A stretch of 21,139 nt of DNA, taken from a virus. Position numbers and translations under genes: made by a program. Location: positions 1 to 21,139 of the IMG/VR virus record IMGVR_UViG_3300028608_000714; one strand, written 5' to 3'. Every line of letters starts with the position of its first letter. Position 1 is the first letter of the stretch. Shown here piece after piece: positions 1,419-21,088 of this stretch. Below the pieces are notes generated by a model, which was given only the letters and a program-made list of their open reading frames with translations, did no database searches and was not told the origin of the DNA.

Positions 1419-1509
1419 CTGACGTCAGAGGGCGCGTGACACCCATCCCCCTAGGCGGGAGCGGGTGTCACGCGCCCTGACAGTGCTGCCTGACGTGCGC
1501 TGACGTCAG
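1419..1509. repeat. TGACGT boxes around a 15-bp inverted repeat at the end of traB (clt candidate)
   Basis: The palindrome CTGACGTCAG occurs at 1419-1428 and again at 1500-1509, where it overlaps the traB stop codon, with a half copy CTGACGT at 1490-1496. Between them, GGGCGCGTGACACCC (1430-1444) and its exact complement (1463-1477) face each other across 18 nt. In Streptomyces plasmids the cis-acting transfer locus clt, bound by the TraB C-terminus, consists of short repeats at or near traB. Position and repeat density fit that model. A terminator for the transfer operon, or an operator of the adjacent helix-turn-helix protein, is the alternative. Confidence 0.5.
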
Positions 1510-3536
1510 GCGTTGGACATCTGCGGGACGATCCGCCAGCGGCCCCGTCCGGCGTCCGCCAGGCGGCCCTCCAGGTACGCCTCCTTCAGCCGCTCGGACA
1601 CCCACGGGCGGGAGTAGCCGTTGCGGTCGCACCAGTCGGTGAAGTCCTTGGGGCCGATCACCATGCGGCCCTCGTTCTCGAACGAGGTGATGGCCTGGGC
1701 CAGGAGGTGCCGGGCCTCTGCCGGGTCGGGCTTGTGCCCGGTCTCCTGGACCAGCGGCACGTCGGCGCCGGCGCCCAGCTCGGGCAACTCCTGCTCCGGG
1801 TCGATGCCCTCGTCTTCGGAGTCGACCAGCGGTTCGGTCTCGTCGGTCATGTCGTCCTCGCTGTCGGGGGCGTCCACGTCCACGCGGCGCCGCTCGGTGT
1901 ACGCGCGGCCCGCCACCTTGGCGGCCGCCTTCTCGGTGATCGGGTCGACGGCGGCGCCGTTGCGGGCGAACCACTGCGCCACGGTCTCCATCAGCGAGAT
2001 GGAGGTATCGGTGAACCACCGGGTCCGGCCGGGGTCGGCGTACCGCTCCTCCGGGATACCGGGGGAGACCAGGTAGCAGTAGCCCGGGCGACGGTTCGCC
2101 CAGCGCTCGGGCGCGGCGCCCGCGTCCAGGACGGTGTCGGGCAGCATGAACCCGGCGGCGGTGGCGTTGGGGACGCCGAAGCACAGCCGGCCGCCCAGGG
2201 CGTCCCTGGTCGTGGTGCTGATCTGGTCGTGGCTGGGCCGCTGAAGCGACACGATCAGCGCCATGCCCGCCGACCGGGCCAGGTTCGCGATCGAGTTGAA
2301 CGCGTCGTCCCCGAGCAGGCCCAGGGAGACTCCGGCCTCCTCGAACCACACGACGTGGAACGGCAGGCCGGGGCAGCCGCACGCGGTGCCGTCGTCGTGG
2401 CACGAGTGCTTCGGGTCGGTCTGCTTCCGGGCGGCCGCGGCCTCCCACTGCCGGTACTTGTGGGCGCCCAACCAGCCGGTGCGGGCCGGGATGACGGCCT
2501 TGACGGCCTCCACCATGATCTCGGTGTCGGCGCCGCCCTCCACGGCCCAGTCATAGGCGGGCAGCAGGGGCCGGAAGTCCTGGAACCCCTTGGGGTCGGA
2601 CAGCCACATGATGACGTCCGTCCTGGTCAGGATCTCCGTCTGGACGTTCAGGGCGCCGTCGCCCTTGCCGGACCCGGTCATGCCCGCGATCAGCAGGTGG
2701 GTGGCGTTCCGCCCCTGCTTGGCGTCACCGGGCAGCCACAGGGCCAGCGGCGCTCCGTCGTCGTACACGCCGAGGACCAGCGGGTCGGTGATGGAGCCGC
2801 CGGGGACTGCGGGCCCGGCCTCTTCCCAGCGGACCGTGTCGGCGAGCATGTCCCGGGGGACGATGACCAGCTCGCCGCGCCGCTCGGAGTCGGGGTCGGG
2901 CTGGTAGCGCACCGCGGTACGCGGCACGTCCAGCGCGGAAGCGATGCCAGGCAGCGCCTTGGCCACGTCGTCGTTGGTCTGCGTGCCGGCGTCCAGCAGC
3001 AGCGGAGCGGTGACCCGGTTCGGCTCGACCTTCGCCGCGCCGATCTGGGCGCGGGCCAGGCCGACCCGCTCCAGCAGGCCCTTGTCAGCGCTCTGCCCGG
3101 CAGGGTCGGAGGTACGCAGCACCAACCGGACGTTCCACGACAGGGCCAGGACCGGCCCGCCCATCAGGTACAGGTCGTCCAGGGCGCCGGCCGTCGGCCC
3201 GGCGAGGCAGGCCCCGGTCAGCCACGCCGATCCGGCGGCGACGGTGATGGCGGAGTGGAGGCGGCGCTGCGAGCTGGTCGTCTTCCCCGCCCACCAGGTC
3301 GCTCCGGTCAGGGCGACGGAGGCGAGGGTGAGGCCGACGCCGGCGGCGGCGCTGCCCTCCCACCGCCAGTTACCCAGGGCGCCAGCCACGCCGACCCCGG
3401 CCATGCCGAGCCACGGCGGGAGGTGCGGCTGGAGGCGACGCACCAGGTAGTTGCGGGTGCTGCTGGAGGAGGCCCCGCCCCCCGTGAGGGGGAGCGGGTA
3501 GGTGCGTCCGTCCTGGTCAGTGAGCTTGCGTCCCAT
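1506..3536 (-). CDS. traB: TraB/FtsK-type DNA translocase for conjugation
   Basis: This 676-aa protein has three or four hydrophobic segments (about residues 42-145), a linker, an FtsK/SpoIIIE RecA-like motor and a C-terminal winged helix (about 610-670, including FTDWCDRNGYSRPWVSERLKEA). The Walker A loop is GMTGSGKG at 285-292 and the Walker B strand is HVVWFEE ending at 400, followed by the SLQRPSHDQISTTTRDALGGR sensor region typical of FtsK-like motors. Streptomyces TraB forms a membrane hexamer that moves double-stranded DNA between hyphae and recognises clt through its winged helix. Two residues are unusual: Gly292 replaces the usual Ser/Thr after the Walker lysine, and Glu399 replaces the Walker B Asp. 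ATG 3536 follows AAGGAGT at 8 nt. It is the last gene of the transfer operon. A phage FtsK-like protein is less likely given the Spd-like neighbours. Confidence 0.88.
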   Translation of the reverse strand: MGRKLTDQDGRTYPLPLTGGGASSSSTRNYLVRRLQPHLPPWLGMAGVGVAGALGNWRWEGSAAAGVGLTLASVALTGATWWAGKTTSSQRRLHSAITVAAGSAWLTGACLAGPTAGALDDLYLMGGPVLALSWNVRLVLRTSDPAGQSADKGLLERVGLARAQIGAAKVEPNRVTAPLLLDAGTQTNDDVAKALPGIASALDVPRTAVRYQPDPDSERRGELVIVPRDMLADTVRWEEAGPAVPGGSITDPLVLGVYDDGAPLALWLPGDAKQGRNATHLLIAGMTGSGKGDGALNVQTEILTRTDVIMWLSDPKGFQDFRPLLPAYDWAVEGGADTEIMVEAVKAVIPARTGWLGAHKYRQWEAAAARKQTDPKHSCHDDGTACGCPGLPFHVVWFEEAGVSLGLLGDDAFNSIANLARSAGMALIVSLQRPSHDQISTTTRDALGGRLCFGVPNATAAGFMLPDTVLDAGAAPERWANRRPGYCYLVSPGIPEERYADPGRTRWFTDTSISLMETVAQWFARNGAAVDPITEKAAAKVAGRAYTERRRVDVDAPDSEDDMTDETEPLVDSEDEGIDPEQELPELGAGADVPLVQETGHKPDPAEARHLLAQAITSFENEGRMVIGPKDFTDWCDRNGYSRPWVSERLKEAYLEGRLADAGRGRWRIVPQMSNA

Positions 3537-3548
3537 GGTCGTGACTCC

Positions 3549-4058
3549 TTACTGGTCGGCCCAGTTCATGCGCGGACGCTCGGGGCGCTTGGCGCGGTGA
3601 CGGACGGCGTTGATCTCCTGCTCGAACTCCTGGGTGTAGACCGAGTAGCAGGCAGCGGCGTTCTTCGCGGCGGACTGGAGGGCGCTGGCGGCCTTGCGCA
3701 TCTTCCGGGCGACCTTCGCGGCCCTGATCTTCGACCCGAACGACTTGCCCTCCGGGTCGGGGACCTGCGACAACGTCGCGTTCAGGATCTCCGCGCCCAT
3801 CGCGACCTCGATGGACAGGGTCACGGCGGCGGCCCGCAGGCTGTTGCAGTAGTTCCGGGTCTGCGCGGGGGACCAGAACTCGGGCGCGGGCAGCAGGGAC
3901 TGCGCCTTGGCCTTCTGCCCCTGCTGGCCGCCCTTGTTGTTGTTGATCGTGACGTTCAGCGGCGGGACGATGCTGCTGCCCAGGCCGCCGACGAACCCGC
4001 CGGCGGCGGCGCCCGCGGCGGCGAACTTGTTGCCCTTGCTGTTGGTCGCGGTGCTCAT
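3549..4058 (-). CDS. Hypothetical transfer-operon protein, 169 aa
   Basis: Starts at ATG 4058 with AAGGAGAG 4 nt upstream. The first 35 residues are rich in Gly and Ala (FAAAGAAAGGFVGGLGSSI), which could be a weak membrane or glycine-zipper segment, followed by the polar NVTINNNKGGQQGQKAKAQ. The remainder is helical, with basic stretches (KVARKMRKAASALQSAAKNAAA) and a basic C-terminus. It lies 12 bp ahead of traB and 21 bp after a small membrane protein gene, so it belongs to the transfer operon. A role in intramycelial spread or as a TraB partner is inferred from position alone; I do not recognise the family. Confidence 0.7.
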   Translation of the reverse strand: MSTATNSKGNKFAAAGAAAGGFVGGLGSSIVPPLNVTINNNKGGQQGQKAKAQSLLPAPEFWSPAQTRNYCNSLRAAAVTLSIEVAMGAEILNATLSQVPDPEGKSFGSKIRAAKVARKMRKAASALQSAAKNAAACYSVYTQEFEQEINAVRHRAKRPERPRMNWADQ

Positions 4059-4079
4059 GAGGCTCTCCTTGGACGGCTG

Positions 4080-4418
4080 TCAGCGGCCGTTGAGGTAGTC
4101 GCGCCACATGGCGCGCAGGATGAGGAAGCAGCCGGTGCCGCAGGTCGCGACGATGGCGACGGCGATGGCGGCCATGGCGAACGCGAGGGCCAGGGCGCAG
4201 GCGATGCACCCGCCGATCGCGGCCAGGGCGCCGATGGTCGCCCACTTGCGGGCGTCGAACGGCTTGGTCTGCTGCTGGTCGTGCTGGCAGGTGTGCGGCT
4301 GCATGGCCTGGCTGATGGCCTGCGCCGTGAGCACGGCCTTCACCAGCTCCAGCTGGCGGGAGTCGTCGGAGGCCTCGGCCACGGCGGCGAGGGCCTTCTG
4401 CAGGGCGTCGTCGCTCAT
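4080..4418 (-). CDS. Spd-like small membrane protein, 112 aa
   Basis: An N-terminal soluble helix (MSDDALQKALAAVAEASDD) is followed by a Cys/His stretch (HTCQH) and then two long hydrophobic segments at about residues 60-82 and 83-105, the second including AIAVAIVATCGTGCFLIL. The protein ends in a short basic tail. The start overlaps the stop of the 58-aa gene by 4 nt (ATGA), so translation is coupled. Small two-helix proteins encoded beside traB in Streptomyces plasmids are the Spd (spread) proteins, which help plasmids move through septa within the recipient mycelium. The assignment rests on topology and operon position, not on recognised homology. Confidence 0.7.
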   Translation of the reverse strand: MSDDALQKALAAVAEASDDSRQLELVKAVLTAQAISQAMQPHTCQHDQQQTKPFDARKWATIGALAAIGGCIACALALAFAMAAIAVAIVATCGTGCFLILRAMWRDYLNGR

Positions 4419-4591
4419 CGCCGCCTCCTGCGGGCCCGGGCGATACGGGTCCGCCGCGATCCGAGGGCCGCCGCGGCGCCGAGACCGAACGCCACGATGA
4501 CCGGCTGCTCGACGAGGACGCCGACCAGGCCGAGCAGGTTGGGGAAAGTCAGCAGGAGGACGACAGCGAGGGCGATCAGGGGCCAGCGCAT
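4415..4591 (-). CDS. 58-aa membrane protein, Spd-like
   Basis: A small gene between the 380-aa and 112-aa genes. ATG 4591 shares one base with the preceding stop (TGATG) and its own stop overlaps the next start (ATGA). The product begins MRWPLIALAVVLLLTF and has two hydrophobic stretches (residues 4-27 and 31-45) and a very basic tail (SRRTRIARARRRRR). A basic tail after a helical hairpin suggests cytoplasmic ends. Tight coupling on both sides argues that it is real. Very short membrane proteins are a regular part of Streptomyces spd operons. Confidence 0.72.
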   Translation of the reverse strand: MRWPLIALAVVLLLTFPNLLGLVGVLVEQPVIVAFGLGAAAALGSRRTRIARARRRRR

Positions 4592-5733
4592 CAGGCGTAG
4601 CCTCCGTTCCCGGGGTCGCGCTTCACGTGCGCATCGGCCTGTTCCTGGGTCCGCTTCGCGGCCCGGTGCAGGGCGGTGCGCACGTAGTTCTCGGTGACGA
4701 CGAGACGGCGGTGCCGGGCGACGTGGTCGACGATCTGCTTGGCCTTGGCGTCCGGACCGAGGACGGATGCGGCCTCGACGACCGCAGCCTCCATCGTGAC
4801 CGGCTCCAGAGCGGTGGCAGGGGCGCTGACCTGCTGATGCGCGGGCGCATCAGCCCGATGCACTTCGTACTCGGTGGGCTGCTGGCCGAGGACCATGGCG
4901 ACGGCGACGGGGTCCACGTGCACCTCGTAGGAGGCGAGGACCGTGGCCAGTTCGGCGGGGTGCGCATCCGGTCGCGCATCAGCCGCGAGGCGGATGGCGT
5001 CGACCGGGTCCATGCTCGCGAAGTGCGACCGGAGTGCCTCCGTGGCGGAGCCGAGTCGGGGCCGCGCGGGCGGCTCGTCGACGGCGGCCGTGACGGGGCC
5101 GGCGTACATCCCGGCGAGGGCCGCATCGGCTCCGCCGGTGATGCGCTCGCGCTGGACGTCGACCAGAGCGGCGCCGAGGATCTGGTCGCCGACACCGACC
5201 TTGCGGGCAAGGTCCCACGACTTCTTCAGGGCCTTCGTCCGGGTCTTCTCCTCGGGGTGCCGCTCTGCGGCGGCCTGGTGGTACGCCAGCTGCTGCACGG
5301 CGTGCGCGTTGCGGCGCTGTGCCTCGGCGTCCACGCCGGTGCTGTAGATGACGATGCGGCGGGCGATCAGGCCGAGGCCCTCGGCGGCGCCGCTCATTCC
5401 GAGCGGCGTGACGGTGTAGACGACGGACTCGGTGACGTTGTCGGCGAGTGCCAGGCCGGTGCCGCAGGCGGCGAGCGGGGCCAGCCACAGGCCGACGCGG
5501 ACCCAGGCCGGCGCGGACTGGCCGAGCAGGGTGAGGCCGACCATGGTCAGCGCGAGGATGAGGGTGAGGCCTTCGCCGGCGGCGACGACGCCGGCGGCGG
5601 TGGCCTTGCGGCCGAACTCGGCGAGCGTGTTGCTGTAGGTGCCGACGGCTCCGGCGATGCCGACGGCGACCATGACGGCGGCTGCGGTGCCGAGGACGCC
5701 ACGCTGCCCCTTGGTGAGGGTGCGGGTGCTCAT
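4591..5733 (-). CDS. Large membrane protein of the transfer operon, 380 aa
   Basis: The N-terminal third has hydrophobic segments at about residues 13-33, 44-68, 76-96 and possibly 100-120. A long charged helical region follows (AQRRNAHAVQQLAYHQAAAE, then KTRTKALKKSWDLARKVG). The C-terminal part is Ala-rich, with a possible helix-turn-helix near residues 325-365 (AKQIVDHVARHRRLVVTENYVRTAL). The layout, with N-terminal membrane helices and a C-terminal DNA-binding-like end, recalls SpdB/DUF2637-type proteins of AICEs and Streptomyces plasmids, whose SpdB2 relatives bind DNA and interact with TraB. Its start overlaps the previous stop by 4 nt (ATGA). Topology is visible; the link to SpdB is an inference. 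Confidence 0.75.
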   Translation of the reverse strand: MSTRTLTKGQRGVLGTAAAVMVAVGIAGAVGTYSNTLAEFGRKATAAGVVAAGEGLTLILALTMVGLTLLGQSAPAWVRVGLWLAPLAACGTGLALADNVTESVVYTVTPLGMSGAAEGLGLIARRIVIYSTGVDAEAQRRNAHAVQQLAYHQAAAERHPEEKTRTKALKKSWDLARKVGVGDQILGAALVDVQRERITGGADAALAGMYAGPVTAAVDEPPARPRLGSATEALRSHFASMDPVDAIRLAADARPDAHPAELATVLASYEVHVDPVAVAMVLGQQPTEYEVHRADAPAHQQVSAPATALEPVTMEAAVVEAASVLGPDAKAKQIVDHVARHRRLVVTENYVRTALHRAAKRTQEQADAHVKRDPGNGGYA

Positions 5734-9008: not shown

Positions 9009-10481
9009 TCACAGCACCTCCGCCACGCGGCGGCCCAGCCACTGGGCGACGTTGCACGAGACCGCGTTCCCGGCCTGCATGGTCTGCTCGCCCTTGTTGC
9101 CGAGGACGATGTAGTCGTCCGGGAAGCGCTGCGCCAGGAGCTGCTCACGCGGCTGGATCATCCGGTAGTGGCAGTCCTCCAGCGCGGGCGCCGGCGAGGC
9201 AATGCCCGCGGAGTCGACCGTGCCCAGCGTGTGCAGGGGCTCGCCGGTCGTCTTCGTGGCCGCGTTGCGGTACGGGATGACCAGCCAGTGGTGCCGTCCC
9301 TGCCCGGTGACGGTGTCGACCGGCTCGGTGACGGGGCGGGCGCTGCTGTTGCGGCGCAGGGTGACGATGAACGAGTCGTCGGCCTGCGGCGGCGTCACCA
9401 GGGCCTCGAAGCCCTTCGGGTTCGCCATGCGGGTGCGCATCGGCTCGGCCGTCGTCGTGCAGGTGGTGTTCCACGTGCCGCCCGACGGGACCAGGACGGC
9501 GTCGCCGATCTTCGCGGTGCGCGCCGCCAGCGGCGCCGAGTCCGCCGGGTACGCCCTGCCGTCGTGCCCGCCGTGGTTGACGGTCAGGACCATGCGCCGG
9601 TCGCCGAGCAGGCCGAGGCCCTTCCGGATCCGCGTCACGGTGTTCGCCGCGAGGGGCCGCAGTCCGTGCGCGGGCCGGTCGCCGATGCGCACCCCCAGGT
9701 TCGACCAGTCGATGATCGAGGCGGCTGGGCGGACGTAGGGCTCGACGACCGCGTGGCGGCAGCGCGGCCCGTTCGGGCACCGGTACACGTACTGCTGGCC
9801 GTACTTCCCGAGCCGCCGGCCCTCCTTCTTCCAGGACTGGAAGGCGGTGACGGTCTCCTCGCACACCGGGCACCAGGCCCGCGGGCGGGGCTGCACGTCG
9901 GGCAGCGGGATGCCCTCGCGGGTGCAGACGATGTAGATCCGGTCCCGCCACTGCGGCGCCGGGCTGTTGCCGTCCTCGTCCCCGGCGTGCGCGCTCGACA
10001 GGGAGACGAACTGGATGTTGTAGCCGAGGGTGCGCATCCCGGCGAGCCAGACGTCGAACAGCTCCCAGTCCGCGGCCTCCATGACGTTCTCCACCAGGAC
10101 GGCCCGGTAGCGGTGGACCTCGGTGGCGCGGATGACGTCCCAGAAGGTGGCCCGGGTGCGCTCGAACGCGGCGCTGGCGACGGGCCCGAACTCCTCGATG
10201 CCCATCTGTCCGGGCCCGGCGGCGGTGCGGCGGCGGCGTCCGCCGGCGGGGCTCAGCTCGGTGCAGATCGGGGAGGCCCAGAGGATGTCCGTCCTGGGCA
10301 GGCGCCGCATGTCGTAGTTGTTGACGTCGGCGCACAGGTGGTCGGCGTCGGTGTGGTTCGCGGCGTGGGTCTCGATGGCGCGCTGCCAGTGGTTCGCGGC
10401 CAGCTTGAGTTCCAGGCCGGCGGCGACGAGGCCGGTGGACGATCCGCCGGCGCCGCAGAAGATGTCGGTGAAGGTGAGCAT
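9009..10481 (-). CDS. C5-cytosine DNA methyltransferase
   Basis: This 490-aa protein shows the C5-methyltransferase motifs in order: motif I DIFCGAGGSS (residues 6-15), catalytic motif IV SPICTELSPAGG with Cys73, motif VI ENV (131-133), motif VIII QWRDR (177-181), and motif X AGNAVSCN near the C-terminus. The usual PC dipeptide is replaced by P-I-C. Between motifs VIII and IX there is an inserted zinc-ribbon, CPVC (204-207) and CPNGPRC (235-241), likely part of target recognition. It should transfer methyl groups from S-adenosylmethionine to cytosine C5. On mobile elements such enzymes usually protect against host restriction. ATG 10481 follows GGAGGA. The target sequence cannot be read from the protein. 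Confidence 0.93.
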   Translation of the reverse strand: MLTFTDIFCGAGGSSTGLVAAGLELKLAANHWQRAIETHAANHTDADHLCADVNNYDMRRLPRTDILWASPICTELSPAGGRRRRTAAGPGQMGIEEFGPVASAAFERTRATFWDVIRATEVHRYRAVLVENVMEAADWELFDVWLAGMRTLGYNIQFVSLSSAHAGDEDGNSPAPQWRDRIYIVCTREGIPLPDVQPRPRAWCPVCEETVTAFQSWKKEGRRLGKYGQQYVYRCPNGPRCRHAVVEPYVRPAASIIDWSNLGVRIGDRPAHGLRPLAANTVTRIRKGLGLLGDRRMVLTVNHGGHDGRAYPADSAPLAARTAKIGDAVLVPSGGTWNTTCTTTAEPMRTRMANPKGFEALVTPPQADDSFIVTLRRNSSARPVTEPVDTVTGQGRHHWLVIPYRNAATKTTGEPLHTLGTVDSAGIASPAPALEDCHYRMIQPREQLLAQRFPDDYIVLGNKGEQTMQAGNAVSCNVAQWLGRRVAEVL

Positions 10482-10540: not shown

Positions 10541-12157
10541 CTACGCGGCGGGAAGGATGAGCTGGCCGAGGACGCGGCCGACGCGGTCCTGGTCGATCAG
10601 GTCGGCGACGTCGCCGGCGGACGCCCCACGCGGCACAGAGAGGCCCAAGCGGCGGCAGAGGCCCAGCTGCTTCGCGCTCGGCGTCCCGGACCTCCAGCGG
10701 GCCTGCCGCGCGACGAACGCGTGCGGGGCGAGGACCTTGGCCTGCTGCTCCAGCCACGCCAGTGCCTCCGGCAGCGGACGGGCGATGTCGTCCTTCGGCG
10801 GGTGCACGCCGTGCGCCTCCGTCCAGCGGCGCATCCGGTACAGCCGGGTGCCGGGGTCGCGCTGGAGGAAGAGGAACATGGCGCTGTTCAGGCGGATGAA
10901 CCAGGTGCCGTCCGCGGTGCGCAGCCAGCGGATGGCGCTGCTGCCGAAGAGGTTGAACTCCTCGGCCTCCACGTGGGCGACCAGCGTGCGCCGCTTCTCG
11001 GCGGCCTCCGCCCGCTCGGCAACCTCCCGCAGGCTCTTGCCCTCCTCGGCCTCCCCGACCTCCCGCGCCGTCAGGTCGACCATCGACGCGAGCTTGTGCT
11101 TGGTGGAGGCGCCCATGACGTCCAGCAGCAGCGCGTCCTGCTTCCCGGGCGCCAGGCGGAGACCGCGGCCCACCATCTGCACGTACAGGCCGGGGCTCTT
11201 GGTGGGCCGGGCGACGACGACGCACGACGTGTGTGGCGCGTCGAACCCCTCGGTCAACACCATGCAATTGGTGAGCACCTGGACCTCTCCGGCCGTGTAG
11301 CGGGCGAGCGTCGCACGCCGTTCGTCGCGGCCCATGTCGCCCCACACCGGGGCCGCCGTGATGCCGGCCGCCGTGAGCGCGGCGGCGGCGGCCTGCGCGG
11401 TCGCCACGGTCGGGGTGAAGACGACGCCCGCCCGGTCGCTCGCGTGGTCGACGTAGGCCTTCGCGATGGCGTCCAAGGCGCCCGAGTCCTCCAGGGCCTG
11501 GCCCAGCTGCCCGTCGACCAGGTCCCCGTTCCGGGTCTTCACCTTGTCCAGGTCCAGGGTGTCCACGGTGATGCGCTTGCCGCGGACGTCGCACAGGTAG
11601 CCGTCGCCGATCATGTCGAGGATGTCCAAGCGGTAGACGACGTCCTCCCACACCTCGGCCAGGCCGCCGTCGGTGCGCGTCATGGTCGCGGTGAAGCCGG
11701 CCACGGGCGTTCCGTTCCAGGCGCCGAAGTGGGCGAGGACCTCCATGTAGGTGCGGGCGGCCGCGTGGTGGCACTCGTCGACGATGACCAGGCCGATGTC
11801 GCGGATGGCCTCGCGCCGCTTGGCTACGGCCAAGGTCTGGACGCTGGCCACGATCACGTCGGCGTCGGCGTGGTCGTCGCGCTGGGCCTTGACGATGCCG
11901 ACCCGCAGCATCGGGTCGACGGCGAGCAGCTTGGAAGCGGCCTGCTCGATCAGCTCCTCCCGGTGGGCGATCACCAGGACGCGGCGGCCGCCGAGGCTGT
12001 CGAGCATCTGGTGGGCCAGGTGGGAGAACACCACGGTTTTCCCGGCGCCGGTCGGCAGGACGACGGCCAGGCGGTTGGTGCCGGCGGCCCACCCGGCGCG
12101 TAGCGCCTCGATGGCGTCGAGCTGGTAGGGCCTGGGCTTGAAGGCGGTAATGGTCAT
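10541..12157 (-). CDS. Superfamily II DEAD/DEAH-box-type helicase
   Basis: The 538-aa product has RPYQLDAI (Q-motif-like), Walker A LPTGAGKT (Lys40), motif Ia VIAHREEL, DECH (127-130), TAT (156-158), a C-terminal RecA lobe with VLTEGFDAPHT, and motif VI QMVGRGLRLAPGK (327-339). This is the RecG/UvrB/type I restriction R-like helicase arrangement. After about residue 345 there is a non-helicase extension of about 190 aa. ATG 12157 follows GAGGTG; a longer frame upstream would run into the iteron region and is rejected. It lies just downstream of the putative origin and the Prim-Pol gene, so a role in unwinding or restarting replication of the element is likely. Confidence 0.9.
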   Translation of the reverse strand: MTITAFKPRPYQLDAIEALRAGWAAGTNRLAVVLPTGAGKTVVFSHLAHQMLDSLGGRRVLVIAHREELIEQAASKLLAVDPMLRVGIVKAQRDDHADADVIVASVQTLAVAKRREAIRDIGLVIVDECHHAAARTYMEVLAHFGAWNGTPVAGFTATMTRTDGGLAEVWEDVVYRLDILDMIGDGYLCDVRGKRITVDTLDLDKVKTRNGDLVDGQLGQALEDSGALDAIAKAYVDHASDRAGVVFTPTVATAQAAAAALTAAGITAAPVWGDMGRDERRATLARYTAGEVQVLTNCMVLTEGFDAPHTSCVVVARPTKSPGLYVQMVGRGLRLAPGKQDALLLDVMGASTKHKLASMVDLTAREVGEAEEGKSLREVAERAEAAEKRRTLVAHVEAEEFNLFGSSAIRWLRTADGTWFIRLNSAMFLFLQRDPGTRLYRMRRWTEAHGVHPPKDDIARPLPEALAWLEQQAKVLAPHAFVARQARWRSGTPSAKQLGLCRRLGLSVPRGASAGDVADLIDQDRVGRVLGQLILPAA

Positions 12158-12185
12158 GTTCACCTCGGTTCGGTTGCTGGGGCTT

Positions 12186-12505
12186 TGCGGGGAGTGCGGG
12201 GAGTGCGGGGACTCGGTGCGGGGACTTCCGCCCGTCTTCCGAGCCGGTCTGATCAGCGGTTTTGCGGGGATGCGGGGACTTGCGGGGACTTGGGAAATCC
12301 CTTGATGACGGAGAGCTGCAGAACTGATCCGTGATGACGTGCGGCACATGTGTTGTGCGATGCATGTGCGACGTGCGCGCTATAGGGGAGGCGGAGGCAG
12401 GTCCCCGCAGGTCCCCGCATCCCCGCATCGGTGCAGGTGGGACCGGATGCGGGGAGTGCTTCGACTCCCCGCACAGGTCCCCGCGGAGTCCCCGCAGTCC
12501 CCGCA
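12186..12505. repeat. Iteron field, putative replication origin
   Basis: The 8-mer TGCGGGGA occurs at 12186, 12195, 12204, 12217, 12263, 12271, 12281 and 12448. Its complement TCCCCGCA occurs at 12402, 12412, 12420, 12466, 12489 and 12498, with a one-mismatch copy at 12478. The left arm reads one way and the right arm mostly the other, around a less GC-rich centre (12289-12401) that contains GGGAAATCCC and two GATGACG copies. It fills the 358-bp gap between the Prim-Pol stop and the helicase start and holds no gene. Iterons bound by an initiator are the standard reading. Operator repeats for the helicase promoter are the alternative. Confidence 0.7.
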
Positions 12506-12515
12506 AGTCCCCCGG

Positions 12516-15170
12516 TCACGACTCGTGCCGTCCGGTGCCGCGGTCCTTGTGGACGTCGACGCGCCAGAAGTTCTGCTTCTTGTGGCTGTCGACGACCATG
12601 ACGACCTTGTGGTCACCGAAGTAGCGGCCTGCGCGCGCCTTCAGCCAGATGCCCAGCTGGTTGGCGCTCGGCGGCTCGTTGCCCTTCCGCGGCACGTGGT
12701 TGGGCAGGCCCTGGATGAGCGCCCCCGTAGAGAGGGGCTCAGTGCCGTAGGTCTCCCGCCACATCTCCAGGAAGAGGGACCACTCCTGCAGTTCGTCGTC
12801 CTGGTCGCGGGCCTCGGTGCGGTCGGCCATCCAGCCTTCGACGCCGAGGAAGTCGAGCAGGCCGGCCATGAGGCTGGCCCACTCGCTGTAGTCGCCTTTG
12901 CGGACGCGGACCTGGGGCGTCCCCGCGGCGACCCAGGCCCGGACGAGCGTGACGAGCGCGGCGACCAGGGTGGAGGCGTTCTTGCGAAGCCACGGCCGGA
13001 GGTCGCCGATGGTGAAGTTGTCGCGCTGGTCGGGGTCGGGGCAGTCGGGGTCCAGGCGGACCCAGAGGACGCGGCGGCCGTTGTCCCCGCCGGTGCGGAG
13101 CGCGTTGCCGGTGACGATCCACAGCCGGTCGTTCGGCATGCTGACCTTCGACGTAGCGCCGAGCACGCGGTCTCCCCACACCTCGTTGGTCAGGAGCGCG
13201 GACAGGACCGGGCTCTTGATGACGGAGCCGTTGGGGAGGTTGTCGAGGACGACGACGGGCTGCCCGGTGCCGTACAGCTGCGTAGTGATGCTCTTCCGCA
13301 GCTCGGTGTCGTTCTCGGGCCAAGCGGTGTCGGCGATGCCGTAGGCGTGCCGGAAGATGTCTTTCAGCAGGCTCTTGCCGGATCCGGCCGCAGTCGCGGT
13401 GATCACGAACATGGGCGTCGGCCCGTGGAAGTACGGGCGCAGGATCGGCGTGAGCAGGGCGCCGAGGTAGTGCGCGCGGTCGCTGGCCGCGACCCAGGGG
13501 AAGTCCTTCAGGACCTGGTCGAGGACGATGCCCTTGGCCCTGTCGAGGCTGTCGCGGGTCACCTGCGGGGCGAGGCGGCGCAGCGGCACCCTCGGCTCGA
13601 GGTACAGGCCCGTCGTCCGGTCGTAGCCGAGGGAGTCGAGCAGTGTGCCGTCGGGTCGGATCACGGGCGACGTGACGATGCCGCGCAGGATGGGCAGGGG
13701 CCAGGACTTGCGGCCGAGGATCGTGGAGCAGCTCTTGGGCATGAGCAGCTCGCGTTCTTCCTCCAGCTGCTCGGTGAGCGGGTTGCGCTTCACGGTGAAG
13801 CTGGAGACGTGGTCGGCGAGGTAGGCCCGCAGGTTGTCGGTGCCGAGCTGCTGGACGATCGGGTCGTCGTTGTCGTCGCGGTAGACCCAGCAGGGGCCGC
13901 CGGACCGGGTGTACAGGTCGGGCAGGCGGCCGTCCTTCATGAGCTGGAGTACTCCGTCGATGGCGTCGGCCTCGTTGGTGATGTCCAGGTCGGGGCGGGA
14001 GGAGACGGACCGCAGCTGCGGGCCGCCCTCGAACTGCTCCTGGGCGTCGGGGGCGTGGTCCGGGTCCAGCGCGGACGAGCCGTCGGCGAAGTGCTGCGCG
14101 GGCACGGACGAAAGCCGCCGGCGGGGCGGCTCGGTGCCGTACCCGTTGCGGCGCAGCTCGGCCGCCGCGGCCTTGAAGTTCCCGCGGTGTTCGAGCAGCG
14201 TGTACGCGCCGAACTTGGAGTACGGCACGTCAGCCTGGAACTCCGAACCGGTGGCGAACACCCACAGCCGGTCTTTCTCCGGGTCACGGCCGGTGGTGGC
14301 CTTGATGCCTCCGACGCCGTCCGCCCACCCCCAGTAAGTGGTGTGACCGCGCGTGATGATGGGCCGGAAGTTCCCGCGAAGGATGTCCGCCCAGTCCGCG
14401 CGGGCCTCGAAGTCCTCGCCAGGGCGCAGGCCGCCGCCGGGCAGCGGCTCCTGCGGCTTGGGCGCGGTCTTCGGCGCCTCGGGCACGGGCATCTGGTCGA
14501 CCATCCGGCAGATGTCCCGGATGGCGTCCATGGTGTCGCCGTCGATGACAGGGATGCCGGCGGGCGACCCGGCGACGCGGACGTATGGCCGACCGGAGGC
14601 GTGCACCGGGCCGCTGGACGGCTCGACCAGGCCGTATCCGCCCTCGCCGCGCGTTTCGATCAGAGGCCGTACGATCTTCGTGTTCGGCTTCTCGGCGATA
14701 CGCTGACGCTCGGAGGCGTCCCACTCGTCTTCCCGGGCCAGCCGCTGAGCCAGCTTCCGGTTCGGGGGGACGGCGGCGCCATCGAGGCGGATGCGGTAGT
14801 GCCGGCCGCCGGAGGGCGACTCCGTCACCCAGCCGTTCAGGATCGCGTGCCATGCCTCGCTGACGCGGGGGCCGGACGCCTCCATGATCTCGGTGACCTC
14901 GTCCAACAGGCCTTCGCGGATAGCGAGGCCCTCGAACTCGATCAGCTCGACGGCACCGGACACCGCGCCGTAGACGACGGCGATGCCGCGGGGCCGGTCG
15001 CCGCCGAACCACGTGTCGTGATCGGCGGGAGTGGTCCGGTCCACCTTGTACTGCAGCCAGGACACGGCCGGCTTCTTGCTGCCGTCGGCCTTGATGGGGA
15101 GGACGCACAGGCCAGCGTCGTGCAGCTCGCGGGCGGCGGCCCGGAGGTCGGTGGGCTGTGAGTCGGTCAA
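12516..15170 (-). CDS. Bifunctional primase-polymerase (Prim-Pol) with D5-like helicase domain
   Basis: The TTG start at 15170 has GGGAG upstream and overlaps the previous stop (TTGA), giving 884 aa. Residues 10-130 resemble Prim-Pol: LCVLPIKADGSKKPAVSW, GIAVVYGAVSGAVELIEFEG with an E-F-E (78-80) where D-x-D is usual, and SPSGGRHYR (119-126) with His124. A central region follows. The C-terminal half is an SF3/D5-like ATPase: TATAAGSGKS (Lys599), VVVLDNLPNG (Asp643), and TGNAL with RR further on as sensor and arginine finger. Prim-Pol proteins of AICEs and phages prime and may extend DNA at the element's origin; the iteron field begins directly downstream. No separate replicase gene is in the window, so host polymerase is presumably used. 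Confidence 0.9.
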   Translation of the reverse strand: MTDSQPTDLRAAARELHDAGLCVLPIKADGSKKPAVSWLQYKVDRTTPADHDTWFGGDRPRGIAVVYGAVSGAVELIEFEGLAIREGLLDEVTEIMEASGPRVSEAWHAILNGWVTESPSGGRHYRIRLDGAAVPPNRKLAQRLAREDEWDASERQRIAEKPNTKIVRPLIETRGEGGYGLVEPSSGPVHASGRPYVRVAGSPAGIPVIDGDTMDAIRDICRMVDQMPVPEAPKTAPKPQEPLPGGGLRPGEDFEARADWADILRGNFRPIITRGHTTYWGWADGVGGIKATTGRDPEKDRLWVFATGSEFQADVPYSKFGAYTLLEHRGNFKAAAAELRRNGYGTEPPRRRLSSVPAQHFADGSSALDPDHAPDAQEQFEGGPQLRSVSSRPDLDITNEADAIDGVLQLMKDGRLPDLYTRSGGPCWVYRDDNDDPIVQQLGTDNLRAYLADHVSSFTVKRNPLTEQLEEERELLMPKSCSTILGRKSWPLPILRGIVTSPVIRPDGTLLDSLGYDRTTGLYLEPRVPLRRLAPQVTRDSLDRAKGIVLDQVLKDFPWVAASDRAHYLGALLTPILRPYFHGPTPMFVITATAAGSGKSLLKDIFRHAYGIADTAWPENDTELRKSITTQLYGTGQPVVVLDNLPNGSVIKSPVLSALLTNEVWGDRVLGATSKVSMPNDRLWIVTGNALRTGGDNGRRVLWVRLDPDCPDPDQRDNFTIGDLRPWLRKNASTLVAALVTLVRAWVAAGTPQVRVRKGDYSEWASLMAGLLDFLGVEGWMADRTEARDQDDELQEWSLFLEMWRETYGTEPLSTGALIQGLPNHVPRKGNEPPSANQLGIWLKARAGRYFGDHKVVMVVDSHKKQNFWRVDVHKDRGTGRHES

Positions 15171-15445
15171 CGGGTGCTCCCGTGGTACTTGGAAAGGTGG
15201 TACGCCTTGATGCCGTCGACGAAGGCGGCGACTCCGCCGGGCCCGCGCGGTGCGGGATTCCCGTCCTCGCCCTTCACGCGGTCGCTCGCGCAGACCGGGC
15301 CTTCCAGGCGGTGCGGGCAGCCGGGGCGCAGGCACTCGTACCTGGCTCGCTGCCCGTCCAGGTCGACGAACAGGGCGCCCTCGAAGGGCTCCGGGGCGGC
15401 CGCGCGGGCCCGGGACACCCCGGGCCGCGCGGCGGTGGCGGTCAA
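15167..15445 (-). CDS. Small zinc-finger-like protein, 92 aa
   Basis: A TTG start at 15445 overlaps the previous stop (TTGA), and the stop overlaps the Prim-Pol start in the same way, so all three genes are translationally coupled. The C-terminal two-thirds contains ECLRPGCPHRLEGPVC and ends DGIKAYHLSKYHGSTR, a possible Cys/His zinc site. The first 20 residues are Ala/Arg/Pro-rich and may lie outside the folded part; a GTG ten codons in is an alternative start. As the immediate partner of the primase gene it may be a replication accessory factor or DNA-binding protein. Family not recognised. Confidence 0.65.
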   Translation of the reverse strand: MTATAARPGVSRARAAAPEPFEGALFVDLDGQRARYECLRPGCPHRLEGPVCASDRVKGEDGNPAPRGPGGVAAFVDGIKAYHLSKYHGSTR

Positions 15446-16248: not shown

Positions 16249-16538
16249 ATGACCACCTGCTGTGCGGGCTGTGCGGGGATGAGGGTCCGGCCGGCGCGCT
16301 CCATCGGTATCCACAGCACCAGCAGGTCGACGCCGAGCCGCGCCGCGATCTTCCGGGCCTTGTGCTCGGGGACGACGCGCTGCGCGCCGGTCATGAGGTT
16401 GCCGATCGTGCCGTGGGCGACGCCGGCGGCCTCGGCGAGTTCGCGGCTGGTGACGGCGTCACCGGTGCCGGTGCGCTCCATGAGGAGCTTGAGTCGGTCG
16501 CCGCTGACGACCGCGTACAGGCTGGGGGTTTCGCTCAC
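16245..16538 (-). CDS. XRE (Cro/CI-like) regulator, 97 aa
   Basis: A helix-turn-helix is visible at about residues 28-55, TSRELAEAAGVAHGTIGNLMTG, followed by EHKARKIAARLGVDLLVLW, the usual end of an XRE domain. The GTG start at 16538 follows GAGGTGA at a proper distance; ATG 16565, nine codons upstream, has no ribosome-binding site. It is the first gene of the leftward Xis/Prim-Pol operon and is transcribed away from the XRE gene at 16808. That arrangement matches a Cro/CI-type switch; activators that start replication in this position (Pra in pSAM2) are a known parallel. Whether it activates or represses cannot be told. Confidence 0.8.
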   Translation of the reverse strand: MSETPSLYAVVSGDRLKLLMERTGTGDAVTSRELAEAAGVAHGTIGNLMTGAQRVVPEHKARKIAARLGVDLLVLWIPMERAGRTLIPAQPAQQVVI

Positions 16539-17318: not shown

Positions 17319-17615
17319 GTGCCAACACCTTTGGCAGGAAGGGTGCTGGTCCAATGCGAAAATCGAACACGTGATCGGTTGGGGGCGGTGGCATTGCAGC
17401 AACAGCACGGCCGGGTTTGGTTTTTCTTCAGCGACGACGTACCCCCTGATGGGGACCTGATGATCCCCATCGTGAACGAGCACGGTCTGGCCATCGCTGT
17501 GAGACCGAATGCGGGGTTGGAACAGGCGATGCTCGACGATCTGAACAGGGTCGCCGACCATGTAGTGGGGGTCGGTCTCGCGCACCTGAATGTGAGTGCG
17601 CTCTTGGCCTCCTGA
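17319..17615 (+). CDS. Hypothetical 98-aa protein upstream of int
   Basis: The frame opens at a GTG at 17319 and ends 16 bp before the integrase start. The product contains RVWFFFSDDVPPDGDLMIPIV and VNEHGLAIAVRPNAGLEQAML, which read like a small alpha/beta fold. The ribosome-binding site is weak (a GGTG tract), so the start is uncertain. The codon pattern is somewhat less GC-biased than in neighbouring genes, and no homologue comes to mind. Its position could mean cotranscription with int. Confidence 0.5.
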   Translation: MPTPLAGRVLVQCENRTRDRLGAVALQQQHGRVWFFFSDDVPPDGDLMIPIVNEHGLAIAVRPNAGLEQAMLDDLNRVADHVVGVGLAHLNVSALLAS

Positions 17616-17631
17616 GCGAGAGGAGCGAGCC

Positions 17632-19287
17632 ATGCCGTCAGCACGCCGGGCAGGCAGCATCTACCGACGCTGCGAGTGCCGCGGCGAGGACGGCAAACTG
17701 CTGGGGGCCTCGTGCCCGAAGCTGAAGCGTAAGAGCCACGGCACCGTAGCGGTCCGCCAGGAACTACCGCCGGACGCCGCGGGGAAGCGCAGAACATGGA
17801 GACGCACCGGTTACGGCAGCGTCGCGGAGGCTCAGGGCGACCTCTCCCGCCTACAGGCCATTCTCGACCTCCCCGGTGACGATCCCGCTGAACAGCAGCG
17901 CGTGGGCGATCTACTCGCCGACATCGCCCGGCGCCGCGCCGATATCCCCCAGGCCGCAGAGGTGCAGCGGCGCTTGGGCGTGGGCATTCCGCTCGACGGC
18001 ACCACGACCGTGGGCGAGTGGCTCGACCGGTGGATGGCCGGCAAGAAGACCAGGAGCACGACGCTCGCGGGCTATCGCTCGCACATCAGAGTCCACCTGA
18101 AGCCACGGATCGGACACCTCCGCCTCGACAGGCTGTCGGTCGGCCACGTCCAGGAGATGTTCGACGCCATCGCTGACGAGTCGGACGTCATCCGTGCCGA
18201 GAATCAGGCTCGCCGCGAGCAAGAGGCACGGGCGAAGTGGACGATGCCGGGACGGCCACCGGCCGCGGCGCGCGAGCGCTTGGCCGCCGAGCGCGAGAAG
18301 TTGGCCGCGATGAAGCCGTACCGGAAGGCCAACGGGCCAGCCACACGCCACGCGATCCGCCGCACGCTGCGCACGGCGCTGAACAAGGCGATCGCCGAGC
18401 AGCTCATCACCTTCAACGCAGCGAAGCACGTCGAACTCGGCAGTTCCGCGCGCCCGAAGGGCCTGCTGTGGACGGCTGAGCGCATCAGCCGGTGGAGGGA
18501 CACCGGCGTGGTCCCCAGCCCCGTCATGGTCTGGAGCCCCGAGCAGCTGGGCGCGTTCCTCGACGCAGCTGAGGAATACCCGCTGTACGCCTTCTTTCAC
18601 CTGGTCGCGCACCATGGCCTCCGCCGAGGTGAGGGCGTCGGCGCGGATTGGGCACACGTACACCTGGACGTCGACCCGCCGCGTATCGACGTGCTCACCG
18701 AGATCGTGGTGGACGGCTGGACGCCGATCGAAACGCAGCCCAAGACGGACAGCAGCATGGCGTCGGTGATGCTCGACCGGGAGACCGTGGCCGTGCTGCG
18801 CGAGCATCGTGCCCGCCAGGAGGCTGCGCGTGCGGCACGCCTGGCCGCCGGGCAGACCTGGGTCGACACCGGCAAGGTCTTCGCGGCCGAGGATGGCAGC
18901 TGGCTCCACCCCGACATCGTGTCCAAGGAGTTCAAGCGGATCGTGGCGGCGGCCGACCTGCCGCCCATCAACCTCCGCGACCTCCGCCACGGCGCGGCCG
19001 CGTTGGTGAAGGCGGCCGGCGGCGACATCGACGACGCCAGTAAGAAGCTGCGGCACAGCACGATCGTGCTGACCGCCGATACGTACATGAGCCTCTTCCA
19101 GGAGTACGAGCAGGACCTGACGGAGCGGGCGGCGGCTGCCGTGCCGCGGGCCCGGCGCGGGCGTGGAACGGCCCCCGGTGCGGGCGCTGTACCGCATCAG
19201 GGGCCGGGTGCACCGCAGCCAGCAGGCGCGGATGCTGATGACACCACGGTACGGGCCAGCACTGACATGGGGGAGTCCTCGGCGTAG
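17632..19287 (+). CDS. int: Tyrosine site-specific integrase
   Basis: The 551-aa product starts at ATG 17632 behind GAGAGGAGCGAG. The N-terminus has a Cys-containing stretch (RRCECRGEDGKLLGASCPKL) common in streptomycete integrases, then a SAM-like core-binding domain (TVGEWLDRWMAGKKTRSTTLAGYRSH region) with a long charged insertion. Catalytic residues of the C-terminal domain are visible: Arg331 (HHGLRRGEG), Lys371 (QPKTDSS), Arg452 (LRDLRHG), His475 (LRHST) and the nucleophile Tyr485 (ADTYMSLF). The first position of the HxxR box is Arg449 rather than His. It integrates the element by recombination at the tRNA core 220 bp downstream. The C-terminal 50 residues are low-complexity. Assignment is firm. 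Confidence 0.95.
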   Translation: MPSARRAGSIYRRCECRGEDGKLLGASCPKLKRKSHGTVAVRQELPPDAAGKRRTWRRTGYGSVAEAQGDLSRLQAILDLPGDDPAEQQRVGDLLADIARRRADIPQAAEVQRRLGVGIPLDGTTTVGEWLDRWMAGKKTRSTTLAGYRSHIRVHLKPRIGHLRLDRLSVGHVQEMFDAIADESDVIRAENQARREQEARAKWTMPGRPPAAARERLAAEREKLAAMKPYRKANGPATRHAIRRTLRTALNKAIAEQLITFNAAKHVELGSSARPKGLLWTAERISRWRDTGVVPSPVMVWSPEQLGAFLDAAEEYPLYAFFHLVAHHGLRRGEGVGADWAHVHLDVDPPRIDVLTEIVVDGWTPIETQPKTDSSMASVMLDRETVAVLREHRARQEAARAARLAAGQTWVDTGKVFAAEDGSWLHPDIVSKEFKRIVAAADLPPINLRDLRHGAAALVKAAGGDIDDASKKLRHSTIVLTADTYMSLFQEYEQDLTERAAAAVPRARRGRGTAPGAGAVPHQGPGAPQPAGADADDTTVRASTDMGESSA

Positions 19288-19490: not shown

Positions 19491-19507
19491 GCCATGAGGG
19501 CTCATCA

Positions 19508-19551
19508 GACTTTTAATCCATTGGTTGTGGGTTCGAGTCCCACAGGGCCTA
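19508..19551 (+). tRNA. 3' fragment of tRNA-Lys(UUU); attachment core (attR or attP)
   Basis: The segment has the anticodon loop CTTTTAA (anticodon UUU), a T-arm GTGGG-TTCGAGT-CCCAC (19527-19543), a 7-nt acceptor strand AGGGCCT and discriminator A. The sequence to its left does not supply the matching 5' half: the anticodon stem would need ATGGA but reads TCAGA, and no D-arm or 5' acceptor strand precedes it. This is what remains at the int-proximal end when an element integrates within a tRNA gene; the restored complete gene should be at the other end, left of this window. Integration into tRNA 3' halves is standard for AICEs. Confidence 0.8.
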
Positions 19552-19557
19552 CGCGCT

Positions 19558-19843: not shown

Positions 19844-20089
19844 GTGCCGCGCTCCACCCGGCCCGATGACCGGGTCGTCATCCGCCGCCGCCAGGTCGGA
19901 GAGCGGATCCGCCACGTGCGCGAGCACCTCAACCTCTCTCAGGTCGACGTGTGCGGGCGGAGTGGAATCGACGTCGCCTCCTACAGCCGCATCGAGCAGG
20001 GCCACGCGGCGCCGCTGCTGGACACGCTGATCCGGATCGCTGACGCCATGGGCGTCGAGCTGGAGGAGCTTGTCCGCCGAGATGGGTGA
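19844..20089 (+). CDS. Small XRE-family regulator, 81 aa
   Basis: A GTG start at 19844 has GGAGC upstream. The product is nearly all one XRE domain: RRRQVGERIRHVREHLNLSQ, then VDVCGRSGIDVASYSRIEQG, then PLLDTLIRIADAMGVELEEL. Such single-domain repressors bind palindromic operators as dimers, and a large nested palindrome lies directly upstream, suggesting autoregulation. The gene is on the far side of the tRNA fragment. It is therefore host chromosome if this junction is attR, or element DNA if the sequence is a circular attP form. It ends at a 13-bp-stem terminator. Confidence 0.82.
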   Translation: MPRSTRPDDRVVIRRRQVGERIRHVREHLNLSQVDVCGRSGIDVASYSRIEQGHAAPLLDTLIRIADAMGVELEELVRRDG

Positions 20090-20690: not shown

Positions 20691-20781
20691 GTCGTCGCTC
20701 CCTCAAAGCGGTGGCCATCCCCCGGGCCGTTCGCGCGGTCGCGGGGTCTACTCGTGCTCGGGACCATACCCCTTACATCCC

Positions 20782-20800
20782 CTGTATGCACTACATACAG
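20782..20800. promoter_or_regulatory. GntR-type operator
   Basis: CTGTATG-CACTA-CATACAG is a perfect dyad containing GT-N(x)-AC, the usual GntR-family form. It sits between the divergent genes at 20690 and 20849 and just ahead of a possible -35 TTGACC (20805-20810). Confidence 0.65.
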
Positions 20801-20848
20801 CGCATTGACCGCTCGCGGAGAGTGATCACCCTCCTTAGCGTGAAGCGC

Positions 20849-21088
20849 ATGATTGACCCGACCTCGGAGGTACCGCGCTGGCGGCAGGCCCACGCGATCC
20901 TCGCCGACCGCATCCGCGCCGGCACCTACCCGCCGGGCAGTCGGGTCCCCTCGGTCGTCGCACTGTCCGAAGAGCTGGGCATCAGCACGCCGACCGCGCA
21001 GAAAGCCCTGCGCCAGCTGCGCGAGGACGGCCTGACGTACACGGTGCCGGGCTTCGGGTCCTACGTAGCCGACCGGCCCCGGGCATGA
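20849..21088 (+). CDS. Short GntR-family regulator, 79 aa
   Basis: The product is little more than the GntR winged helix: WRQAHAILADRIRAGTYPPG, then SRVPSVVALSEELGISTPTAQKALRQL, then EDGLTYTVPGFGSYVADRP. No effector-binding domain follows, so it is a minimal regulator like several small GntR proteins of actinomycetes. ATG 20849 matches the family's N-terminus; a GTG three codons upstream is possible, and neither has a strong ribosome-binding site. A dyad fitting GntR operators is 50 bp upstream, suggesting autoregulation and control of the divergent Cys-rich genes. In pSAM2 a GntR protein, KorSA, silences the element, but here the gene is outside the att core. Confidence 0.85.
   Translation: MIDPTSEVPRWRQAHAILADRIRAGTYPPGSRVPSVVALSEELGISTPTAQKALRQLREDGLTYTVPGFGSYVADRPRA

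Follow-up and report, generated by a model that had tools for sequence, protein, structure and literature searches.

A 320-bp array of 8-bp iterons, lying between a Prim-Pol gene and a helicase gene at positions 12186-12505 of the stretch of DNA analyzed here (hereafter the window; 21,139 nt, IMG/VR record IMGVR_UViG_3300028608_000714), is very probably the replication origin of an actinomycete integrative and conjugative element (AICE). This reading draws on comparison of sequences and on analogy with the theta plasmid pWTY27 of Streptomyces sp. Y27; the origin is a variant of the pWTY27-type iteron origin, an already-known kind.

An integrated element with a Prim-Pol replication module

The window, which IMG/VR classes among its viruses, is an integrated actinomycete element of the Streptomyces type, and the hallmarks of an AICE, an integrase, a replication module and an FtsK-like Tra protein, are all found in it. 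The tyrosine integrase gene (17596..19287, plus strand) has near it a tRNA 3′-end fragment (19507..19553, plus strand), tRNA-Lys-like and recognized by eye (ARAGORN returned no tRNA), which is probably the attachment site; the other end of the element lies outside the window. An excisionase-like HTH protein is also encoded. Genes for XRE-like and GntR-like regulators, past the tRNA fragment (19844-20089 and 20711-21088), belong perhaps to host DNA or to a second element. The product of the traB gene (1506..3536, minus strand), a double-stranded DNA translocase (NF041214), is 64% identical to the TraB of pWTY27, and beside the gene, at 1429..1478, is a candidate clt, an inverted repeat (AGGGCGCGTGACACCC / GGGTGTCACGCGCCCT) with TGACACC, the clt word of pWTY27. 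A C5 cytosine methyltransferase is encoded within the element at 9009-10481. No match to the phage capsid family PF05065 was found in the window, and family scans of the window detected no ParA/ParB genes.

The replication initiator (12516..15170, minus strand; the start is probably the TTG at 15170) consists of an N-terminal Prim-Pol domain (PF09250), a P-loop AAA+ half and a predicted C-terminal winged helix. Its stop codon at 12516 and the ATG at 12157 of a DEAD/DEAH helicase gene (RadD/ResIII-like; 10541..12157, minus strand; RBS GAGGTG) bound the gap that holds the array. The array starts straight after the initiator stop codon and the helicase gene lies directly downstream. We found no credible gene in the gap, in line with the first-pass annotation, which had described the array as gene-free and flanked by two replication genes.

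Fourteen iterons in two mirrored arms

A word count on both strands gave 14 exact TGCGGGGA/TCCCCGCA sites within 12186-12505 and a 15th with one mismatch (CGCGGGGA, minus strand, about 12477-12485), the same count as had been made before; a single stray exact copy lies outside the array, at 16272. The earlier judgment that the iterons are far above chance was borne out, as neither set of shuffles approached 14: in dinucleotide shuffles of the whole window (n = 100) the iteron word had a mean of 1.8 copies and a maximum of 6, and in shuffles of the gap only (n = 2000) the commonest 8-mer of any sequence averaged 2.05 copies, with a maximum of 8. In the rest of the window, any 8-mer is present in at most four copies per 320-bp stretch.

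The two arms are opposed, as the first-pass annotation had it. The left, helicase-side arm (12186-12288) has seven iterons, all on the plus strand: an outer cluster of four (12186..12224; sites at 12186, 12195, 12204 and 12217) and an inner triplet (12263..12288; spacing 8 and 10). The right, Prim-Pol-side arm is formed by an inner triplet of inverted iterons (12402..12427, minus strand; spacing 10 and 8), a lone plus-strand iteron (12448..12455) and an outer cluster (12466..12505, minus strand) with iterons at 12466, 12489 and 12498 and the one-mismatch CGCGGGGA near 12478. The spacings, [9,9,13,46,8,10], then 120, then [10,8,46,12,11,9], are mirrored, down to the inner triplets (8,10 and 10,8) and the 46 bp that lead to the outer cluster on either side. 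The site at 12448 opposes its own arm, and its mirror partner, decayed in the window, is intact in pWTY27; the plan is thus that of a decayed palindrome. Between the arms, the central core (12291..12395) is less GC-rich, as also noted before (58%, versus 70% and 75% for the arms), carries TATAG near its Prim-Pol-side edge and is the probable melting region.

A search of Rfam gave no match, and a literature search on the iteron words found nothing relevant. DnaA boxes show no cluster or excess with the array; they would not be needed if the initiator brings its own helicase. Two other assignments were considered and rejected. The words resemble the repeat stems of type I-E CRISPR, but there is no repeat-spacer structure; and a classical Rep/DnaA iteron plasmid origin has iterons of about 17-22 bp, helical-turn spacing and DnaA boxes, whereas here the words are of 8 bp, the spacing is 8-13 bp and DnaA boxes are not in excess.

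The plan of the array is conserved while its letters drift

The first-pass annotation had suggested looking for the array beside the Prim-Pol genes of related elements and had counted a lack of such conservation against its reading; the array proved to be conserved. We sought relatives of the initiator in viral contigs, genomes and plasmids, and about 40 distinct relatives, among temperate phages, a plasmid-prophage and integrated elements, keep the array in the same place and with the same plan. In every intact full-length relative (62-100% identical) the array lies directly behind the initiator gene. The order of the sites, ++++-+++-------, and the spacings, roughly 9,11,12,46,8,10 / core / 10,8,46,12,10,9, are kept while the letters of the iterons drift. 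No array was found at one locus with a frame-broken relative of the initiator (L060), nor was an adjacent array seen in L066-L069, distant relatives in which the similarity is limited to one half. The plasmid-prophage (L033; NZ_CP108372.1) is a circular 34-kb Streptomyces plasmid that is also a prophage, with terminase, portal, capsid and integrase; it bears the same module of initiator, array and helicase, and no other replication initiator is annotated on it.

An experimentally defined counterpart in pWTY27

The C-terminal half of the initiator is 44.6-44.8% identical to RepA of pWTY27 over aa 337-880 (tblastn). Replication of this plasmid is abolished when 300 bp of non-coding DNA behind repA are deleted; adding back the 300 bp restores it but a 149-bp part fails to do so, and RepA binds its own array, as established by EMSA and by footprints at 405-447 and 462-509 (PMC3583192). 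The locus also drives a linear plasmid, which its authors read as bidirectional replication, and clt and the iterons were mapped separately, as two loci (PMC3583192). By sequence, the two RepA footprints coincide with the inner iteron clusters of an array that is an exact mirror, [11,17,39,9]|73|[9,39,17,11]. The pWTY27 iteron DR1, GTGGGAAC, matches GCGGGGAC of the window at six of eight positions, the two differences being transitions; there is thus a precedent for the iteron, which the first-pass annotation did not know to have been described. Since the window has an array behind the initiator gene and a TGACACC repeat behind traB, it has separate counterparts to both of the mapped pWTY27 loci.

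The C-terminal half of the initiator as the probable reader of the iterons

One relative, L058, amounts to a natural swap, nearly a controlled one. It has a Prim-Pol domain 69% identical to that of the window and a downstream helicase 87% identical, but the C-terminal half of its initiator is unrelated (DUF927 type), and the word of its array is GGTACGC. Because the C-terminal half and the letters of the array changed together, the array belongs to the C-terminal half. Arrays of CAGTGCC or CAGTGAC were found in L061-L065, which have the Prim-Pol half, and not the C-terminal half, in common with the window.

Within one element the iterons drift in concert. Position 4 of the iteron is A in 148 of the 162 sites of A-type (TGCAGGGA) elements and nearly always G in TGCGGGGA elements, and the C-terminal half follows it most closely at columns 868, 833 and 841 (numbered on the 887-codon translation of 12516-15179), all of which are in the last 60 residues. 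Of 31 G-type elements, 29 have Lys868, as against none of 11 A-type elements; the two exceptions, pWTY27 and CP108626, are the two most distant elements, and the tracking held in elements added after the first tally. Gln841 was a near-perfect tracker among the first 30 elements and weakened later (L216 has Gln with A, and L225 Met with G). With about four independent changes, two of which are on firmly supported branches, the link from residue to base is a lead and not a proof.

For the C-terminal 110 residues of the initiator (codons at 12519..12848, minus strand), a winged helix is predicted with a mean pLDDT of 79 (84-92 in the core), with residue 841 in the third (recognition) helix and residue 868 at the tip of the wing. 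Comparison of this fold with the PDB returned mostly winged helices with Z scores of 6-7; as all were below 8, a winged-helix fold is supported, but no particular family. A sequence search of the PDB gave no informative match. An AF2 model that took in all of the C-terminal half could be used for the winged helix and for nothing else; the AAA+ half folded too poorly in it to assign a helicase class. The C-terminal winged helix is the probable reader of the 8-mer, and the support for this role comes from the covariation. The first-pass annotation had the origin recognized by the Prim-Pol protein or a partner; the conservation of the array and the homology to pWTY27 RepA favor the Prim-Pol protein, but the reader within it is probably the C-terminal winged helix and not the Prim-Pol domain.

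A companion box in and beyond the arrays

In many relatives, GCAGGTCA/TGACCTGC, often as AAAACCGCAGGTCAGA, is found between the inner and outer clusters. The two copies in the window origin are degenerate, with two mismatches each: box X′ (12250..12257, minus strand) is GCTGATCA in the context AAAACCGCTGATCAGA, for which the consensus of the relatives is AAAACCGCAGGTCAGA, and box X (12433..12440, plus strand) is GCAGGTGG (ACCTGC when read along the rep strand), with TGACCTGC in its place in pWTY27. At least one exact box is present in L032, L034, L058, L059, L061-L065 (some copies one mismatch apart), L070, L074 and L078; the total within one mismatch is 80 sites, versus 18 expected. The box occurs with unrelated initiators and other iterons, and also outside arrays. 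In the window itself, seven exact copies of GCAGGTCA lie on the minus strand outside the array (243, 1191, 4827, 7779, 16731, 19313 and 19436), two of them in the interval from the integrase to the tRNA fragment. When one mismatch is allowed, the boxes in the window number 39, versus 23 expected, and no shuffle reached 39.

Matches to the 15-mer AAACCGCAGGTCAGA ran to dozens in 41 Streptomyces genomes, versus none for its reversed control, and at seven of 30 loci this bait led to dense arrays of still other words. A 16-mer form used on viral contigs was abandoned; its matches were mostly chance or stand-alone copies, with a dense array at one of 123. Seven Streptomyces loci found by the box bait alone (L238, L239, L242, L255, L257, L259 and L261) have dense arrays of TGACGCA, AGCGACT or AGGGACT in 8-11 copies, and related open frames terminate about 330 bp away in five of them (L238, L242, L255, L257 and L261); the frames of L242 and L261 had no Pfam match. 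A phage contig (L148) encodes a TOPRIM + AAA protein (3376-5091), followed by a TGGGACA array (5100-5340) with three GCAGGTCA boxes, the same plan as in the window with a bacterial-type primase instead.

A speculative reading, to which we give a rather low probability, is that actinobacterial iteron origins follow a single two-code design even where their initiators are unrelated. The iterons would vary and be read by the initiator's own C-terminal domain, which can be swapped; the box, (A)AAACCGCAGGTCAGA, would stay constant and be read by a factor present in every host, such as a replication-loading or nucleoid factor. If so, phages and plasmids would have in the companion box a general landing site of a kind not described before.

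Other functions considered for the array

Control of the DEAD-box helicase gene or of the replication operon, by the initiator or a regulator acting on the array as an operator and nothing else, would suit an array that ends about 20 nt before the ribosome site of the helicase gene, and iteron-bound initiators often repress transcription too. However, L058 has the same helicase (87% identical) and different array letters, which go with its different initiator half; L032, L059 and L061-L065 have arrays and no such helicase in the locus examined; and in pWTY27 the array re-added in cis restores replication. Together, these three observations contradict a sole operator function, which the first-pass annotation had named as a finding that would undo its reading, and make it very unlikely. 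We also found no consensus promoter in 12100-12600, a weak point since Streptomyces promoters differ. Autoregulation alongside origin function is quite possible.

Slightly less likely still is that the array is the clt transfer site, its 8-bp repeats being the TRS at which the FtsK-like TraB starts double-stranded conjugation. A TraB is indeed encoded in the window, and those of Streptomyces plasmids use a C-terminal winged helix to bind 8-bp motifs that occur as repeats (as quoted in PMC3583192 and PMC4170104). Yet about 8.7 kb separate the array from traB, with the TGACACC repeat directly behind traB instead, and pWTY27 has its clt and its iterons at two distinct loci. Moreover, 22 other phage records and the plasmid-prophage have the array and, in a search with the TraB protein of the window, no TraB, and a phage capsid gene is present in 14 of these 23 records. 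Most of the phage records are integrated or fragmentary, and a single absence is weak, but the pattern is uniform. PF01580 was discarded as a test for TraB, as it barely detects the window's own TraB (E 0.031), and was replaced by the TraB protein itself as query; G012, a TraB-negative fragment of the window's own element, was left out of the count. Least likely of the three functions is that the array acts in partition or incompatibility, as a parS-like locus or as copy-control iterons, rather than as a start site. Short-repeat arrays can serve partition or copy control, and phage P4 has a second iteron region for copy control. Against this, the family scans found neither ParA nor ParB in the window, each element has one array that changes along with the initiator half, and the homologous array of pWTY27 is essential for replication.

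Proposed mechanism and significance

For the array as a replication origin, the following course of events can be proposed. The element would excise as a circle before replicating. The fused Prim-Pol/AAA+ initiator would then bind the 8-bp iterons, presumably via its C-terminal winged helix, and the two mirror arms could place two initiator assemblies in opposite orientation, head-to-head, around the GC-poorer core. The AAA+ half would melt the core and unwind outward, the Prim-Pol half may lay the first primers, and the DEAD-box helicase encoded next door possibly assists; the outcome would be bidirectional theta replication.

In the parts of the literature drawn on here, experiments have done little to define where Prim-Pol AICEs start replication. 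The present analysis places one such probable origin within 360 bp, ties it to an experimentally defined origin and offers a putative recognition rule, from C-terminal winged helix to 8-mer. It also shows that matched cassettes of initiator half and array have been exchanged as a unit among actinobacterial phages, plasmids and conjugative elements, which could serve to predict origins and incompatibility from sequence and to build Streptomyces vectors.

Comparison with known systems

In its integrase, Prim-Pol replication module and FtsK-like Tra, and as an integrated actinomycete element, the window resembles the SLP1-like Prim-Pol AICEs, as far as these are described in the part of the source used here (PMC3218068). 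SLP1 has a two-gene Prim-Pol/RepPP operon, whereas the initiator of the window is one fused protein, and the same part of that source gives no origin array for SLP1-like AICEs (PMC3218068).

The nearest working analogies are the alpha protein of phage P4 and ORF904 of the Sulfolobus plasmid pRN1, and we claim membership in neither system. P4 alpha is a single protein with primase and helicase parts and a winged helix for binding the repeats of the origin (PMC4234260), and the initiator of the window is likened to it by this description; the primase of P4 is, however, of the TOPRIM type and that of the window is a Prim-Pol. ORF904 joins a Prim-Pol and a helicase to a C-terminal winged helix, and its gene is immediately followed by the origin (PMC4234260). 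The window has the same set of domains, with the winged helix as a prediction, and, probably, its origin behind the gene, but the pRN1 origin is a 100-nt stem-loop with no iterons.

The comparison with pWTY27 goes further. In both, the array occupies the non-coding gap directly behind the gene for RepA or its homologous half; two opposed arms of 8-bp iterons surround a core with mirror spacing; TGACCTGC/GCAGGTCA boxes are at mirror positions, exact in pWTY27 and degenerate in the window; and there is a Prim-Pol partner, together with a similar TraB with TGACACC repeats behind it. The two differ in that pWTY27 is a free plasmid and the window an integrated element, and in that RepA and RepB are separate genes in pWTY27 but one fused protein in the window, whose Prim-Pol is not close to RepB (only 39 aligned residues are similar), for which reason we treat the origin as a variant of this type. 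The iteron letters also differ, as does the core between the inner sites, which is 73 bp in pWTY27 and 120 in the window.
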